Of a stretch of 64,000 nt of DNA, positions 37,238-45,604 are shown in pieces. The stretch's first letter is position 1; the number at the start of each line of letters is the position of its first letter. The position numbers and the translations under genes were made by a program. The notes beneath the pieces are model-generated. The model worked only from the letters and a program-made list of their open reading frames with translations, had not been told where the DNA came from and did no database searches. This DNA is from Pedococcus cremeus (GTDB lineage Bacteria > Actinomycetota > Actinomycetes > Actinomycetales > Dermatophilaceae). The stretch spans positions 1-64,000 of the forward strand of contig NZ_FOHB01000011.1 of assembly GCF_900111375.1 (NCBI RefSeq), in the 5' to 3' direction.

Positions 37238-38893
<1,656 letters not shown>

Positions 38894-38917
38894 TCGGCAC
38901 CGCTGCCACCAGGCGCA

Positions 38918-38954
38918 AACAGGCCAGGTCGTCCTTCGGGGTGCCTGGCCTGTT
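38918..38954 (+). terminator. terminator hairpin after sigma factor gene
   Basis: An 11-bp perfect stem AACAGGCCAGG/CCTGGCCTGTT closes a loop that contains its own small CC-TTCG-GG type hairpin. It starts 25 bp after the stop. Confidence 0.75.
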
Positions 38955-39040
38955 GGCGTCCTGCGCAGTGGCTGACGCGGAGGTCTATGGTGGGGAAGGC
39001 GGCGTGGCCGCGATCCACGGGTCTGGAGGGGGCGCCGGAG

Positions 39041-40003
39041 ATGCCGAATGTCCCGTTCTCCACCGAGGACCTGCTGGCCTCCATCGGGCAGGCTGTCATC
39101 GCGACGGACCTCGACGGCGTGGTGCTCTACTGGAACGCTGCCGCCGAGGACCTGTACGGGTGGACGGCCGAGGAGGCGCTGGGGCGCAACATCGCCACCC
39201 TGACCGTGCCCACGATGTCCGAGCAGATGGCTGCCGACATCATGCTGGCGCTGCGCACTGGGGCGCGTTGGTCCGGAGGGTTCGCGGTGAGCGGCCGGGA
39301 CGGCTCCGTCTTCCCCGCCCTCGTCACGGATGCCGGGATCCACGTCGACGGGGAGCTCGTCGGCATCGTGGGCGTGTCGGCCCATCTCGGCACGGCGCTC
39401 AGACCGCTGTTGGAGCGCTCGACGGATGCCGCGCTGGTGGTGCGCACAGACGGCATCGTCACCTATGCGAGCCCGGCCGTGACCGCCCTGTTCGGTTGGC
39501 AGGAGTCAGCGGTGATGGGCCAGTCGTTCATCCCCCTGGTGCATCCCGACGACCGCGCACCCCTCGCAGAGTTCCTCACCCAGGTGACCGAGCGACCCGG
39601 TGGCTACGCCCCCCTCACCCTGCGGATCCGCCACGAGGACGGGTCGTGGACGTGGGTCGAGGCTGCTCTGACCAACCTGTTGGACGACCCGGTCGTGCGC
39701 GGTGTGGTATGCAACCTCCACCGGAGCATCAGCCGCCCCGCCCAGGAACGGGCTGAAGAGCGGATCGCCCAGCTGCAGCGGGCCCTGGACTCCAGGGTGG
39801 TCATCGAGCAGGCGAAGGGCTTCCTCGCTGCGCGGGAGGGCACCGTCCCCGACCTCGCGTTCGAGCGCCTGCGCAGCCATGCGAGGGCGCACGACCTCAG
39901 CGTGCGCGAGGTGGCCCAACGGCTCCTGGACGGGGAGCTGGACCTCGGACCCACAGCCCGGACCTCGCCCCCGACGCCACCACATGGTACAAAGGGCTCG
40001 TAA
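39041..40003 (+). CDS. PAS-PAS-ANTAR RNA-binding regulator
   Basis: This 320-residue protein has two PAS domains (about 8-115 with VIATDLDGVVLYWNAAAEDLYGW split by a turn, and 125-240 with ALVVRTDGIVTYASPAV and LVHPDDRAPL) followed by a C-terminal ANTAR domain (about 252-305: LDSRVVIEQAKGFLAAREG, LRSHARAHDLSVREVAQRLL). ANTAR domains bind paired hairpins in mRNA and act as antiterminators, so this is probably a ligand- or redox-sensed RNA regulator. ATG 39041 has GGAGGGGG upstream; an ATG at 38987 would add 18 residues. Its target is not evident here. Confidence 0.87.
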   Translation: MPNVPFSTEDLLASIGQAVIATDLDGVVLYWNAAAEDLYGWTAEEALGRNIATLTVPTMSEQMAADIMLALRTGARWSGGFAVSGRDGSVFPALVTDAGIHVDGELVGIVGVSAHLGTALRPLLERSTDAALVVRTDGIVTYASPAVTALFGWQESAVMGQSFIPLVHPDDRAPLAEFLTQVTERPGGYAPLTLRIRHEDGSWTWVEAALTNLLDDPVVRGVVCNLHRSISRPAQERAEERIAQLQRALDSRVVIEQAKGFLAAREGTVPDLAFERLRSHARAHDLSVREVAQRLLDGELDLGPTARTSPPTPPHGTKGS

Positions 40004-40036
40004 GCCTTAGACCCGGCTCCTCCATCGAACGGCGGT

Positions 40037-41449
40037 GTGATGGCCGGGTTCTCGACCGATGGTCTGGCGTTCTCCGTCCGGGTCCACGAGGTGCTCTGTT
40101 GGCGCGCCGGTCCCGTCTGGGCTGTCAGCCTCCCCGAACTGGGCCGTGCCTCTGTAGCCGGTCGTCTGTCCGAGGTCGAGGGTGTGGCCCGGGCGCTGGT
40201 CGGTGATTCCGACCGGCCGCCGGCAGGCATGGGCTTCGACATCGTGTTCCTGCCGGACACCCTCACCGCTGCCCTCGGCGCAGCTGACACGGCACGCTCA
40301 GAGACCGACGGCCGCGGGCTCGATACCGTACGTCGGTCACTGGGACGGCGGCTGGCCCGCGACGGCCTGGCACCGACTGACGTCGCGGCAGCTCTCGGGG
40401 TGGCTCCGGAGCGAGCCGAGGAACGCGTGGGCGCCCCACCCGGTGAGGGGCGGCCGGCGGGGCCGTCGCCCTCCGTGCGGCTGTCGCCCCACAAGGCTCG
40501 TGCGACGCGACCTGCCGAACCGACGCCGCACGCCGGCTACCGGCACGAGGCACTGCTCTATCGCGACGACGACGAGTTCCTCGCAGGAACGGTGCCCTTC
40601 ATCGAGGAGGCGCTGGCGCTGGGCCAGCCCGTCATGGTGGCCCTCCCCGAGCCCCATCTGACGCTGGTCCGCCAGGAGCTCGGTGCGGCGGCCTCGACGG
40701 TCCGGTTCGTCGACATGGGCCACCTCGGAGCCAACCCGGCGCGGATCATTCCCGCCTGGCGGGAGTTCATCGACGAAGCCTGCCGAGACGGGCAGGAGGC
40801 GCGCGGGATCGCTGAGCCGCTGTGGCAGGGACGCCACGCGGCCGAGGTCGCCGAGTGCCAGCTCCACGAGGCCCTCCTCGACCTCGCCGTGGAGCCCTCG
40901 CAGCCCCTGTGGTTGCGCTGCGCCTATGACGTCCAGCGGCTCGGGTCGCCGGAGTCCGAGGGTGCCCTGCACAGCCACCAGGCCATCGTCGGGGGGACCC
41001 CCCACTCCCACGACGCCGGCCGCCCAGAGCCGCCGGGCATTGGCACGTTCAACGAGAAGCTCCCCGATCCGCCCCCCTCTGCCGACGTGCTGGACTTCGG
41101 GCCGGCCAACCTCATGGTCGTCCGGTCGCGGGTCGCCGAGCAGACGTCAGCCGTCGGTCTGGACCCCGAGCGAGCGGCGGACCTCACGCTCGCGGTCTGG
41201 GAGCTCGCCGTGAACAGCACCGAGTACGGCGGCGGACCGGCGGCGCTGCGTATCTGGCGCGAGCCGGACGCCCTGGTCTGCGAGGTCGCCGACCCGGGCC
41301 ACATCGACGACTACCTCGTGGGACGGCGCACCCCGGACCCCACGTCGCTCGGTCAGCGCGGCGTGTGGCTCGTCAACCAGCTGTGCGACCTCGTCCAGCT
41401 CCGCTCCGGCACCGAGGGCACGACAGCGCGCATCTTCACCTGGCTGTAG
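40037..41449 (+). CDS. HicB-like / MEDS / HATPase (RsbW-like) fusion protein
   Basis: This is a 470-residue protein with three parts. Residues 10-130 resemble the actinobacterial HicB-like antitoxin fold: WAVSLPELGRASVAGRLSEVEGVARAL then LARDGLAPTDVAAALGV, a helix-turn-helix-like tail. Residues 168-310 are a MEDS (DcmR-type sensory) domain: GYRHEALLYRDDDEFLAGTVPF, VDMGHLGANPARII. Residues 350-470 are a GHKL ATPase of the anti-sigma type: LTLAVWELAVNSTEYGGG (N box) and VCEVADPGH (G1 box), ending TTARIFTWL. No His kinase phospho-acceptor is visible. It lies 33 bp after the PAS-ANTAR gene. MEDS plus HATPase is a known actinobacterial pairing; the HicB-like front is unusual. Start could be GTG 40037 or ATG 40040. 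Confidence 0.8.
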   Translation: MMAGFSTDGLAFSVRVHEVLCWRAGPVWAVSLPELGRASVAGRLSEVEGVARALVGDSDRPPAGMGFDIVFLPDTLTAALGAADTARSETDGRGLDTVRRSLGRRLARDGLAPTDVAAALGVAPERAEERVGAPPGEGRPAGPSPSVRLSPHKARATRPAEPTPHAGYRHEALLYRDDDEFLAGTVPFIEEALALGQPVMVALPEPHLTLVRQELGAAASTVRFVDMGHLGANPARIIPAWREFIDEACRDGQEARGIAEPLWQGRHAAEVAECQLHEALLDLAVEPSQPLWLRCAYDVQRLGSPESEGALHSHQAIVGGTPHSHDAGRPEPPGIGTFNEKLPDPPPSADVLDFGPANLMVVRSRVAEQTSAVGLDPERAADLTLAVWELAVNSTEYGGGPAALRIWREPDALVCEVADPGHIDDYLVGRRTPDPTSLGQRGVWLVNQLCDLVQLRSGTEGTTARIFTWL

Positions 41450-41579
41450 GCGGTCCCTGCGCCGGCCGTGGCGGGCGTCGGCAGGTCGAGGAGGGCGCGG
41501 GACCTGCGGCCCTAGCCGGTGGGCGCGGTGGAGGCGTGTGCTGGTGGTGGCGCGGAGGGCAGCGCCAGAGGTGGTTGTC

Positions 41580-43178
41580 ATGGCTGGCGGTCGGACACAG
41601 GAACTCGTCGTGGGGTGGCTGGCGACCGTGGCCGCCGTCGCGGCGCTGCTCACGGGCAGCCTCCTCACCGCCCCAGCCGCCCGCGCGGCGACCCTTCTCG
41701 GCAACGACGTGTCGTGGCCGCAGTGCGACAAGGCTGTCGGCGGCCTCGGCCTGCCCATGCCGCCGGACACCGCGGCGTTCGCCGTCATCGGGCTCACCAA
41801 GGGCCTGCCCTTCACCGAGAACCCCTGCCTCGCCGACCAGGTCGCGTGGGCGACCCAGCACGGCACCCCGACCCACGCCTACACGATCGCCGCCTTCCCC
41901 ACGACGGCGCAGCTGGGCACCTACGGCACCCAGGGGCCGTGGCGGGCCACCACCCGGGCCGGGCAGCTGTCCAACGTCGGCTACGCCGAGGCCCGCTTCG
42001 CCCTGCAGAGCCTCCAGGCCGTCCCGTTCACGCCACCCGTCGTGTGGGTCGACGTCGAACCGCGCCCCGCCCAGCCGTGGCCGTCCGACACCACGGCCCA
42101 GCGCCGCGAGAACCGCTACGTCGTCGAGGGGCTGATGCGCGGGCTGCGCGACGCGGGCGTCGCCTACGGCCTCTACTCGTATGCCGCGGGCTGGCAGGCC
42201 ATCACCGGTTCCTGGTGGCTCCCCGGCGTGCCGGTGTGGGCCACGGCGGGCCGGCTCGACTACCCGGATGAGGCCCTCGACCGTTGCACCCAGGCCAGCT
42301 TCTCCGGCGGGCGGGTGGTCCTCTCCCAGTGGTACGACGACGTGGCGGACTACGACCGCACCTGTGAGCCGTACGCCTTCACCCCGCTGCCCGTGCCGGC
42401 GTCGACGCTGTCGATGTCGACGGCCGACTTCAACGGTGACTGGGTCGGTGACGTGCTCGCGCGCACCGCGACCGGCGACCTTCGCCTGTATGCCGGTGCG
42501 GCGGGCACCCGTCTCGCCGCCGGCCTGCGGATCGGCAGCGGCTGGAACGGGCTGAGCCTGCTGGAGACGCCCGGTGACGTCGACGGCGACGGCCCGCTCG
42601 ACGTCCTGGCCCGCGAGGCGTCGACGGGGTACCTGTGGCTGTACCGCGGTGACAGCCACGGGGCCTGGCTGCCCCGCGTTCGCGTTGGCACCGGGTGGAA
42701 CGTGTTCAACGCCCTGGTCGGCCCCGGCGACTTCACGGGTGACCAACGGGTCGACCTGCTCGCACGCCGTGCGTCGACGGGTGAGCTGTGGCTCTACGCC
42801 GGCAACGGGAAGGGCGGGTGGAAGCCGGCCGTGCGGGTCGGGACCGGCTGGAACGCGTTCAACGCCCTCGTCGGCCCGGGCGACGTCAACGGTGACGGTG
42901 CGGCCGACGTGCTCGCTCGTCGTGCCTCGACCGGCGACCTGTGGCTCTACCCCGGCAACGGGAAGGGCGGCTGGAAGCCTGCCGTGCGGATCGGCACCGG
43001 CTGGAACGGCATGACCGCGATCATGAGCCCCGGGGACCTCGACGGCGACCGCGTGCCCGACGTCGTGGCGCGCGACCGGTCCGGCGTCCTGTGGCTGTAC
43101 CCCCGCACCGCCAGCGGGACCTGGCGGCCGCGGGTGCGGCTCGGCGCCGGCTGGAACAGCCTGAACGCGCTGTTCTGA
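41580..43178 (+). CDS. secreted DUF1906/GH25-like protein with FG-GAP repeats
   Basis: This 532-residue protein has a signal peptide (VVGWLATVAAVAALLTG to ARA, about residue 35). Residues 38-265 resemble the Rv2525c-like TIM-barrel domain: LLGNDVSWPQCDKA, FAVIGLTKG, WVDVEPRPAQPW, YGLYSYAAGWQ. The C-terminal 260 residues are about five FG-GAP/VCBS-type blades with a 51-residue period (GDVNGDGAADVLARRASTG, LWLYPGNGKGGWKP), each with a Ca-binding-like DxNGDG loop. ATG 41580 follows AGAGGTGG. It is likely a cell-wall or extracellular protein acting on glycans, but the exact activity is not shown. The strongest repeats are near-identical at DNA level. Confidence 0.82.
   Translation: MAGGRTQELVVGWLATVAAVAALLTGSLLTAPAARAATLLGNDVSWPQCDKAVGGLGLPMPPDTAAFAVIGLTKGLPFTENPCLADQVAWATQHGTPTHAYTIAAFPTTAQLGTYGTQGPWRATTRAGQLSNVGYAEARFALQSLQAVPFTPPVVWVDVEPRPAQPWPSDTTAQRRENRYVVEGLMRGLRDAGVAYGLYSYAAGWQAITGSWWLPGVPVWATAGRLDYPDEALDRCTQASFSGGRVVLSQWYDDVADYDRTCEPYAFTPLPVPASTLSMSTADFNGDWVGDVLARTATGDLRLYAGAAGTRLAAGLRIGSGWNGLSLLETPGDVDGDGPLDVLAREASTGYLWLYRGDSHGAWLPRVRVGTGWNVFNALVGPGDFTGDQRVDLLARRASTGELWLYAGNGKGGWKPAVRVGTGWNAFNALVGPGDVNGDGAADVLARRASTGDLWLYPGNGKGGWKPAVRIGTGWNGMTAIMSPGDLDGDRVPDVVARDRSGVLWLYPRTASGTWRPRVRLGAGWNSLNALF
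42755..43010 (+). repeat. 153-bp in-frame tandem repeats within FG-GAP domain
   Basis: Consecutive copies with a 153-bp (51-codon) period, for example GTGGCTCTAC at 42788 and again at 42941, each followed by GGCAACGGGAAGGGCGG, differ at few positions. The high DNA identity suggests recent duplication or gene conversion of blades. Confidence 0.75.
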
Positions 43179-43228
43179 GTCGTCAGCGTTCTCCGGGCCG
43201 TCAGCCGTCCGCCCTCAGCCGTCAGCCC

Positions 43229-45604
43229 TCAGCTGCGGCCGAGGCGGGACCGCACCGAGTCCCAGGCTCGCTGCACCGGCTCGGTCACGGCCGCCCGCCG
43301 CTCGCGCCACTCCACGAGCCCGTCCTGCGGCCAGAGCAGGGCCCGCACCCGGTCGCGCCGCCGCCGCACCCCGGACACCGCGTGCACGACGCGCTCGGCG
43401 TCCTCGCGGATGTCGACGAGCGTGGTCCCCGGCCGGGCGTAGCGTGACTGCTCCACCGTGTCGACGACGCGCTTGAGGGAGGCGACCTCGGCGCCCTCGA
43501 GGTAGGCCTCGCGCTGGTAGAAGCGGCCGGCCTGGCGTGGGGTGCTGCCCCGGGGCGCGACGACCCCGAGGTCGCCGATCCGCTCCACCATCGCCTGCCA
43601 CTCCACCTCGACGCGCTGGGCGTCGTCGGGCGCCTCGTGCAGCCGTCGGCGGCGCCGCAGCCGCGCGGCCACCGGCACGGCGACCGTGCCTGCCACGCCG
43701 ACGACGAGGCCGAGGAGCACCCAGCCGAGCAGGGTGAGCCGGCCCGAGGACCACCAGGCCGAGAGCACACCGGTGTCGGCGCTGCCGGACGTGGTGGCCC
43801 GGTCGGAGGCACCCGGGTCGTTGGCGCCGTTGTCGCGGCGGGGTGCCGACGTGGCCGACACGCTGGGTGCGTCCGTGGCGGTCGACTGGGTGTCGGGCGT
43901 CTGCACCTCTTCGAGGGAGTACGGCGGCGCCTGGCCGCTGCGCGAGGCAGGCGTCGGTTCGAACCGGAGCCAGCCTGCGCCCTCGAAGTACAGCTCCGGC
44001 CAGGCGTGGGCGTCGGCCGCGCGCACGGTGTAGGTGCCCTTGTCCAGGGTGCCGGGGAGGAACCCGATGGCCATGCGCGCGGGGATGCCGGCGGCCCGCG
44101 CCATCATCACCATGGCGGTGGCGAACTGCACGCAGTAGCCCTGCCGCGTGGTGAGGAAGTGCGTGATCGGGTCCATGGGCACGTCGCGCCCGGTCTCGTC
44201 GCGCACCGGCCCGGCGAGCTGGAGCGAGTAGGTGTAGGCCGAGCTGCGGAAGTGCTCCTGGATCGCCATGGCGGCCTCGATCCGCGTCGCCCCCTCGGGC
44301 ACCACCTGGCGCACGAGCGACTCCACGGTCGGTGCGGACTCCCGGTCGACGCGGAGGGCGTCGAAGCGCTGGCTGTCGGAGAGCCGGTCGGTGGTGGGCT
44401 GCTCCAGCAGCGCGCGCGGCGGGTCGAGGGCGACGTAGTCCATCCGGTACGACGTCACCGACCGGTTGGTGCGCAGCACCTGGGTCTGCGGGTCGACTCC
44501 CCAGGAGGCGTCGTCGACCTCGCCGGCCACCAGCGGGTAGGGCGCCGCGAGCTGGGGTGCCTGCAGGCGCGAGTCGTCGACGCTGATCCGGTAGCGCTTG
44601 CGGGGGACGTCGCTGGAGATGTCGTCGGGCAGGGCCACGCGAGGGCGAGGGCTCAGCTCGCTGTCGCTGCGGTCGGGGCGCCACTCTCCGCCGCGGTAGG
44701 TGGTCAGGACACCGACCCGCAGGGGAGTGGGCGACGCCGCGGTGGTGGTGTACGACAGCACGGGGGACTGCGACCGGTCCTCGAGGCTGCGCGTCAGGTC
44801 GAGCGTGCTGTTGAGCCCGATCTGCCCGTCGCTGAAGCCGGTGGAGTCGGTCGCCCTGCCGAGCCCGTCGACGAGGTACCGCGTCGGCAGGTGGGGGGTG
44901 ACGACCGGCAGCACGACGGCCGCAGCCAGGGCAGCCACGCCGAGGGTCCGCCCGAGGGACGCGAAGCCCATGGTGCCGTCGCGGTCGGACGTGGCGCGGC
45001 CCCGGCTCTGCAGCGGCGCCGTGGTGCTCCAGCGGCGCACCGAGGCGATGCCCTGACGCCCGACCATGATGAGCCACACGCCCGCGGCGATCACGAAGTA
45101 GACCGGGTGCAGCGAGCTGCCGGAGTTGGACGCCGAGATGAGGAACGCGGTGAGGAGGGGCAGCCCGGCGAGGGCCGGGGAGCGCCGCATGACGGCGAGG
45201 TGGTCCACGAGCATCGCCGTCAGGCCCATGGCCAGCCCGACGCCGAGGATGATGCCGCGGTTGGTCGGTGCCGGCGCCGCGTAGTTCTGGATCGTCTCGC
45301 GGGCGTCCACCAGCAGGTTGTTGAACGCCAGCACCGTGTCCACGCCGGGCAGGCCGTGCCAGAGGTGCCCGCGGCCGTAGATCCAGCCCGCGCCGACCAC
45401 GAGGGCCACGAGCTGCACGAACAGCACCCCCGTCTTGGAGGTGGTCAGCCACCGGCCCAGCAGCCCGGCCGCGGCCACGAACGCGACCATGAGCATGGTC
45501 GGCCGGATCCAGTCGTCGGGGGTGAACAGCGTCGTCAGCGGCCAGCTCACCACGGCGGTGGCCAGGGCGGCGATCGCCGTGTCGGCCAGGCGGGTGCGGC
45601 TCAT
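43229..45604 (-). CDS. DUF3488 transglutaminase-like membrane protein (TgpA type)
   Basis: This 791-residue protein has an N-terminal membrane region with about six to seven helices (DUF3488 part), a large external domain containing a transglutaminase-like fold with Cys491 in RQGYCVQFATAMVMMAR and His533 in DAHAWPELYFE, a disordered Ser/Thr/Pro linker, one more membrane helix (LTLLGWVLLGLVVGVAGTVA) and a cytoplasmic helical tail. This order matches TgpA-type proteins. The start ATG overlaps the DUF58 gene stop (ATGA). With MoxR and DUF58 partners it forms a common actinobacterial operon of unclear function, possibly wall- or protein-maturation related. Confidence 0.88.
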   Translation of the reverse strand: MSRTRLADTAIAALATAVVSWPLTTLFTPDDWIRPTMLMVAFVAAAGLLGRWLTTSKTGVLFVQLVALVVGAGWIYGRGHLWHGLPGVDTVLAFNNLLVDARETIQNYAAPAPTNRGIILGVGLAMGLTAMLVDHLAVMRRSPALAGLPLLTAFLISASNSGSSLHPVYFVIAAGVWLIMVGRQGIASVRRWSTTAPLQSRGRATSDRDGTMGFASLGRTLGVAALAAAVVLPVVTPHLPTRYLVDGLGRATDSTGFSDGQIGLNSTLDLTRSLEDRSQSPVLSYTTTAASPTPLRVGVLTTYRGGEWRPDRSDSELSPRPRVALPDDISSDVPRKRYRISVDDSRLQAPQLAAPYPLVAGEVDDASWGVDPQTQVLRTNRSVTSYRMDYVALDPPRALLEQPTTDRLSDSQRFDALRVDRESAPTVESLVRQVVPEGATRIEAAMAIQEHFRSSAYTYSLQLAGPVRDETGRDVPMDPITHFLTTRQGYCVQFATAMVMMARAAGIPARMAIGFLPGTLDKGTYTVRAADAHAWPELYFEGAGWLRFEPTPASRSGQAPPYSLEEVQTPDTQSTATDAPSVSATSAPRRDNGANDPGASDRATTSGSADTGVLSAWWSSGRLTLLGWVLLGLVVGVAGTVAVPVAARLRRRRRLHEAPDDAQRVEVEWQAMVERIGDLGVVAPRGSTPRQAGRFYQREAYLEGAEVASLKRVVDTVEQSRYARPGTTLVDIREDAERVVHAVSGVRRRRDRVRALLWPQDGLVEWRERRAAVTEPVQRAWDSVRSRLGRS

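Follow-up and report, generated by a model that had tools for sequence, protein, structure and literature searches.

In the 64,000-nucleotide stretch of Pedococcus cremeus DNA analysed here (the window), the forward-strand open reading frame at 40037-41449 encodes a 470-residue fusion protein in which ORF analysis, domain searches and homology recognise a HicB-like domain with a helix-turn-helix (HTH), a linker, a MEDS domain and an RsbW-type ATPase, in that order. The frame is open for 470 codons, starting at GTG 40037 or ATG 40040, and both the ORF and its N-terminal fusion are real, so that the three-part composition proposed originally (HicB-like, MEDS and anti-sigma-type ATPase) largely holds in Pfam, NCBIfam and family-profile searches. 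We consider it probable that the protein as a whole is an RsbA switch with a re-used HicB domain and that its linkage to sigA, the gene of the principal sigma factor, is incidental.

The rear part belongs to the RsbA family

Pfam places MEDS (PF14417) at residues 169-315 (40541-40981, E 2.9e-28) and HATPase_c_2 (PF13581), an ATPase of the anti-sigma/serine-kinase type, at residues 356-466 (41102-41434, E 2e-14). Residues 168-467 cover positions 1-301 of the 303 in the NCBIfam profile NF041045 (RsbA family) and score 318 bits, the cut-off being 210; judged by sequence, this segment is an RsbA-family anti-sigma regulator, a known kind of protein. It shares with that family the full profile length, the ATPase motifs and about 50% identity to orthologs, and the protein differs from the family in its extra N-terminal HicB-HTH domain of about 130 residues and the linker that follows. 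The ATPase had been described as lacking a phospho-acceptor histidine, and a Pfam search of the 470-residue protein gives no HisKA domain. The N-box residues E388 and N392 and the G-box residues D418, G420, R440 and G441 are invariant among the aligned orthologs, and in the full-length structure model the ATPase matches SpoIIAB, RsbW and UsfX (Foldseek, E 7e-6 to 6e-5), anti-sigma kinases that have the ATPase fold in common with the fusion protein, which is itself multi-domain. The same model (md312b444e1c2) also gives weak Foldseek matches to RecA/RAD51 (E ~3e-3), possibly through the MEDS domain. The host genome carries six MEDS loci; three MEDS genes, at least two of them with an RsbA-type ATPase, are clustered on the reverse strand at G000:C6:82678-85482.

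The front domain resembles HicB antitoxins that carry an HTH

Residues 1-160 have no match in Pfam or NCBIfam. A search of 58 relatives recovered short stand-alone genes that match the front domain (residues ~14-133, 40076-40435) weakly but consistently (best E 9e-8); their products, of about 125 residues, align with it end to end, and all share a Trp and a Pro as well as an HTH at the C-terminal end. A profile of this family detects members in 62 of the 395 genomes searched from the class, and the window domain scores E 1.1e-43 against it, but the window sequence is itself a row of that profile. The profile matches TTHA1756, a HicB-like protein of solved structure (2yzt), at E 4e-4 and HicB proper (6g1c) more weakly (E 1.4), as well as the HTH regions of FliA/WhiG sigma factors; PF15919 (HicB_lk_antitox) matches 4 of 28 family members and generic HTH models in Pfam match most. 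At the sequence level, then, the front domain is a member of a widespread actinobacterial HicB-like family with a C-terminal HTH.

AlphaFold2 run with the family alignment predicts a strand-strand-strand-helix-strand core followed by a helical HTH (pLDDT 83). This model was folded separately; the full-length model, whose alignment placed the stand-alone rows away from the front domain, is unreliable there, with a pLDDT of mostly 23-52 through residue 90. Foldseek returned nothing significant for the front-domain model (2yzt at E 1.6), and the HicB assignment is therefore based on sequence profiles and gene pairing. Taken with the 2yzt and PF15919 matches, the profile and the predicted fold agree with the original proposal of a HicB-like fold with an HTH tail in the first ~130 residues. 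MEDS and the ATPase were recognised directly, whereas residues 1-160, searched alone, gave no direct match and proved HicB-like through their family.

The gene pairing comes from the stand-alone relatives. At about 20 of 33 loci a short HicA-like ORF lies directly upstream on the same strand, often overlapping by 4 nt, a count that is partly circular in that the HicA-like profile was built from 13 of those same sequences; as an independent check, PF07927 (HicA_toxin) matches 9 of 15 candidates (best E 2e-10). Because of this upstream ORF, the stand-alone proteins are most likely the antitoxin components of HicAB pairs. The HicB halves of these actinobacterial HicA-HicB(HTH) pairs (L089-L117, L002-L004 and L007) have no specific NCBIfam model and only partial Pfam matches.

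The fusion is very rare, with a second case in a distant lineage

Within the same family and order, orthologs that match the RsbA part start near residue 160. A pattern scan of genome contigs based on the window protein alone gave no match, while an alignment-based scan of an 84,980-species genome collection, using short conserved peptides, yielded 75 RsbA-family loci, one of which carries the front domain. This locus, L125 (contig G651:C130 of the Sporichthyaceae bacterium MGR_bin113 MAG), has the same domain order as the window protein (HicB-HTH, linker, MEDS, ATPase), and its N-terminal ATG is preceded by a perfect AGGAGG Shine-Dalgarno sequence. Searching 397 genomes of the phylum with L125 gave front-domain coverage in the window only, the fetched loci being devoid of the domain, and a 62%-identical RsbA from L125's own order has none. 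Viral contigs held no relative, and plasmids held RsbA parts with no front domain. Other long open frames with HicB matches (L118-L123) are not fusions. In the literature searched, which covers the field in part, no fusion of HicB to MEDS or to an anti-sigma protein was found.

Aligned over 124 residues, the front domains of the window and L125 show 33% identity, with whole-codon gaps only, and they are sisters in the domain tree (support 92/88, not starred), where the window branch is long (1.83). In the RsbA tree, a topology that unites the pair is not rejected (AU p 0.39; p 0.92 in a quick 81-row tree). The RsbA parts do not resolve, and these trees are compatible with one fusion event, with transfer or loss, as well as with two. 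The fusion is thus very rare, yet real. Orthologs starting at residue 160 had been named earlier as a sign of a mis-called start; nearly all of the orthologs do start there, but a mis-called start does not follow, since the distant L125 has the same order and a perfect Shine-Dalgarno sequence.

Possible readings of the front domain: relic or functional module

Codon bias across the front domain is weak (0.045, compared with 0.44 for the rest of the gene and 0.095 for one reverse frame), and its coding status consequently rests on protein homology and the second fusion. The Pro/Arg-rich low-complexity linker (40436-40540; pLDDT mostly below 60) shows no codon bias. No candidate start in the window, 40037 and 40040 included, has a strong Shine-Dalgarno sequence; a possible internal start, GTG at 40427-40429, is preceded about 5 nt upstream by GAGG and would give an RsbA-only product. 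No Rfam match and no promoter-like or terminator-like site was found around the fusion gene. The weak codon bias and the want of a strong Shine-Dalgarno sequence make for a serious rival explanation, in which an upstream hicB became continuous with rsbA once hicA and a stop codon had been lost; the front domain would then be a relic in decay, and the product an ordinary RsbA made from an internal start such as GTG 40427. The long branch of the window domain and the absence of the domain from nearly all orthologs point the same way. We nevertheless regard decay as unlikely, given that similarity persists at the protein level with no frameshift, that the order recurs in a second lineage behind a perfect Shine-Dalgarno sequence, and that the two front domains are sisters.

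The preferred reading, a re-used HicB domain, raises the question of what that domain would do. Pairing with an adjacent hicA gene, as seen for HicB antitoxins, is not found for the fusion gene, and neither the window nor the surroundings of the fusion in L125 contain a HicA-like ORF. PF07927 has no match in the host genome; this model sees only 9 of 15 members of the divergent HicA group, so that a HicA encoded elsewhere in the genome is conceivable. Within the HTH (40343-40432), 31 of 32 stand-alone proteins have a Gln in the recognition helix that aligns with Glu in the window protein (PERAEERV) and with Gly in L125. In view of the lack of a detected HicA and the loss of this Gln in both fusions, the front domain would have a role other than that of an antitoxin. 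It shares with actinobacterial HTH-type HicB antitoxins the domain itself, the conserved Trp and HTH positions and the predicted fold, and departs from them in its lack of a detected HicA, its junction to a signalling protein, the lost Gln and its strong divergence.

A DNA-tethered anti-sigma switch, in which the HicB-HTH part binds a specific operator in the manner of HicB repressors and either recruits the sensory kinase to a promoter or controls its own gene, would suit the predicted HTH fold and the generic HTH matches in Pfam across the family. MEDS is known to occur in combination with an HTH (PMC11507031), and an HTH domain is also present in some HicB proteins (PMC2701414). DcmR and similar regulators likewise have an HTH-bearing N terminus followed by MEDS, but there HTH and MEDS make up the entire protein, whereas in the fusion protein the HTH is preceded by a HicB-type domain and MEDS is followed by an ATPase. 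The substitution of the recognition-helix Gln by Glu in the window and Gly in L125 speaks against operator binding, and we hold such a tethered switch to be rather improbable.

The sigA neighbourhood

The fusion gene follows sigA (37238-38893) and a gene for a PAS-PAS-ANTAR RNA-binding regulator (38987-40003), both on the forward strand, and the 33-bp gap after the ANTAR stop codon is as first described. The original proposal was that the three genes could form one control unit. Across 13 other genomes the conserved part of sigA shows 97-100% identity in 12 and a partial match at 93% in the last, but the slot that follows it is occupied by unrelated genes in the relatives examined: going by their translations, flavodoxin-like and methyltransferase-like genes within the same genus, an ATP-sulfurylase-like gene in genome G074, and SDR-like and other genes in G030. 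G030 has an ATPase-only match (37% over 113 residues) near sigA on the other strand, and the close RsbA homologue of that genome lies on a different contig. Of the 14 genomes searched, one besides the host has a clear full relative of the PAS-PAS-ANTAR protein (50%), which no RsbA gene adjoins, and close RsbA relatives sit away from both sigA and ANTAR genes. In several genomes a TgpA-DUF58-MoxR block lies past the post-sigA slot; the interval between sigA and this block (38894-43285 in the window) is a variable insertion site across relatives. It also contains an FG-GAP repeat protein (41538-43178) whose N-terminal part has no Pfam match.

Although the common strand, the short gap and the absence of a terminator-like site between the ANTAR and fusion genes in a simple scan would suit a single sensory operon whose product acts on SigA, the differing post-sigA slot, the unlinked RsbA orthologs and the SigB-like sigmas of the host genome make this very improbable, and the linkage looks accidental on genomic comparison; co-transcription with the ANTAR gene is conceivable even so. 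To our knowledge, SigB/SigF-type sigmas are the targets of the RsbW-type proteins characterised to date.

Likely partners and implications

The two SigB-like sigma factors of the host genome are likelier partners than SigA. Their loci score 219 and 202 bits against TIGR02980, whose cut-off is higher (234). An RsbA paralogue (G000:C8:330408-331316) lies about 30-40 kb from both of these sigma genes (C8:361678-370889). No STAS or SigB gene adjoins the fusion gene; in G074 the RsbA ortholog adjoins a STAS gene, a PAS/GAF histidine kinase and response regulators, a typical partner-switch neighbourhood.

MEDS domains sense a small molecule or a stress state, and RsbW-like ATPases bind a SigB-type alternative sigma factor and phosphorylate a STAS anti-anti-sigma factor (partner switching). 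By the mechanism we propose, a HicB-type antitoxin domain became joined to the N terminus of an RsbA-family anti-sigma regulator, and the fusion protein would act as an anti-sigma kinase on a SigB-type factor. The HicB-HTH part may serve as a self-assembly or regulatory module or as a weak DNA tether. RsbA of Streptomyces is known as an RsbW homologue in SigB control (PMC8346170). Only tentatively do we suggest that, in two actinobacterial lineages, a partner-switching anti-sigma kinase took up the antitoxin domain to serve as a functional input or as a DNA tether, which would connect binding derived from toxin-antitoxin systems with the control of general stress sigma factors.

The fusion also leads to a HicA-HicB group that is widespread in actinobacteria and whose HicB half is poorly represented in the family libraries searched. 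Should the front domain be both translated and active, an antitoxin domain would have been re-used inside a sigma-factor switch, and this would offer a concrete path from addiction module to stress regulation.
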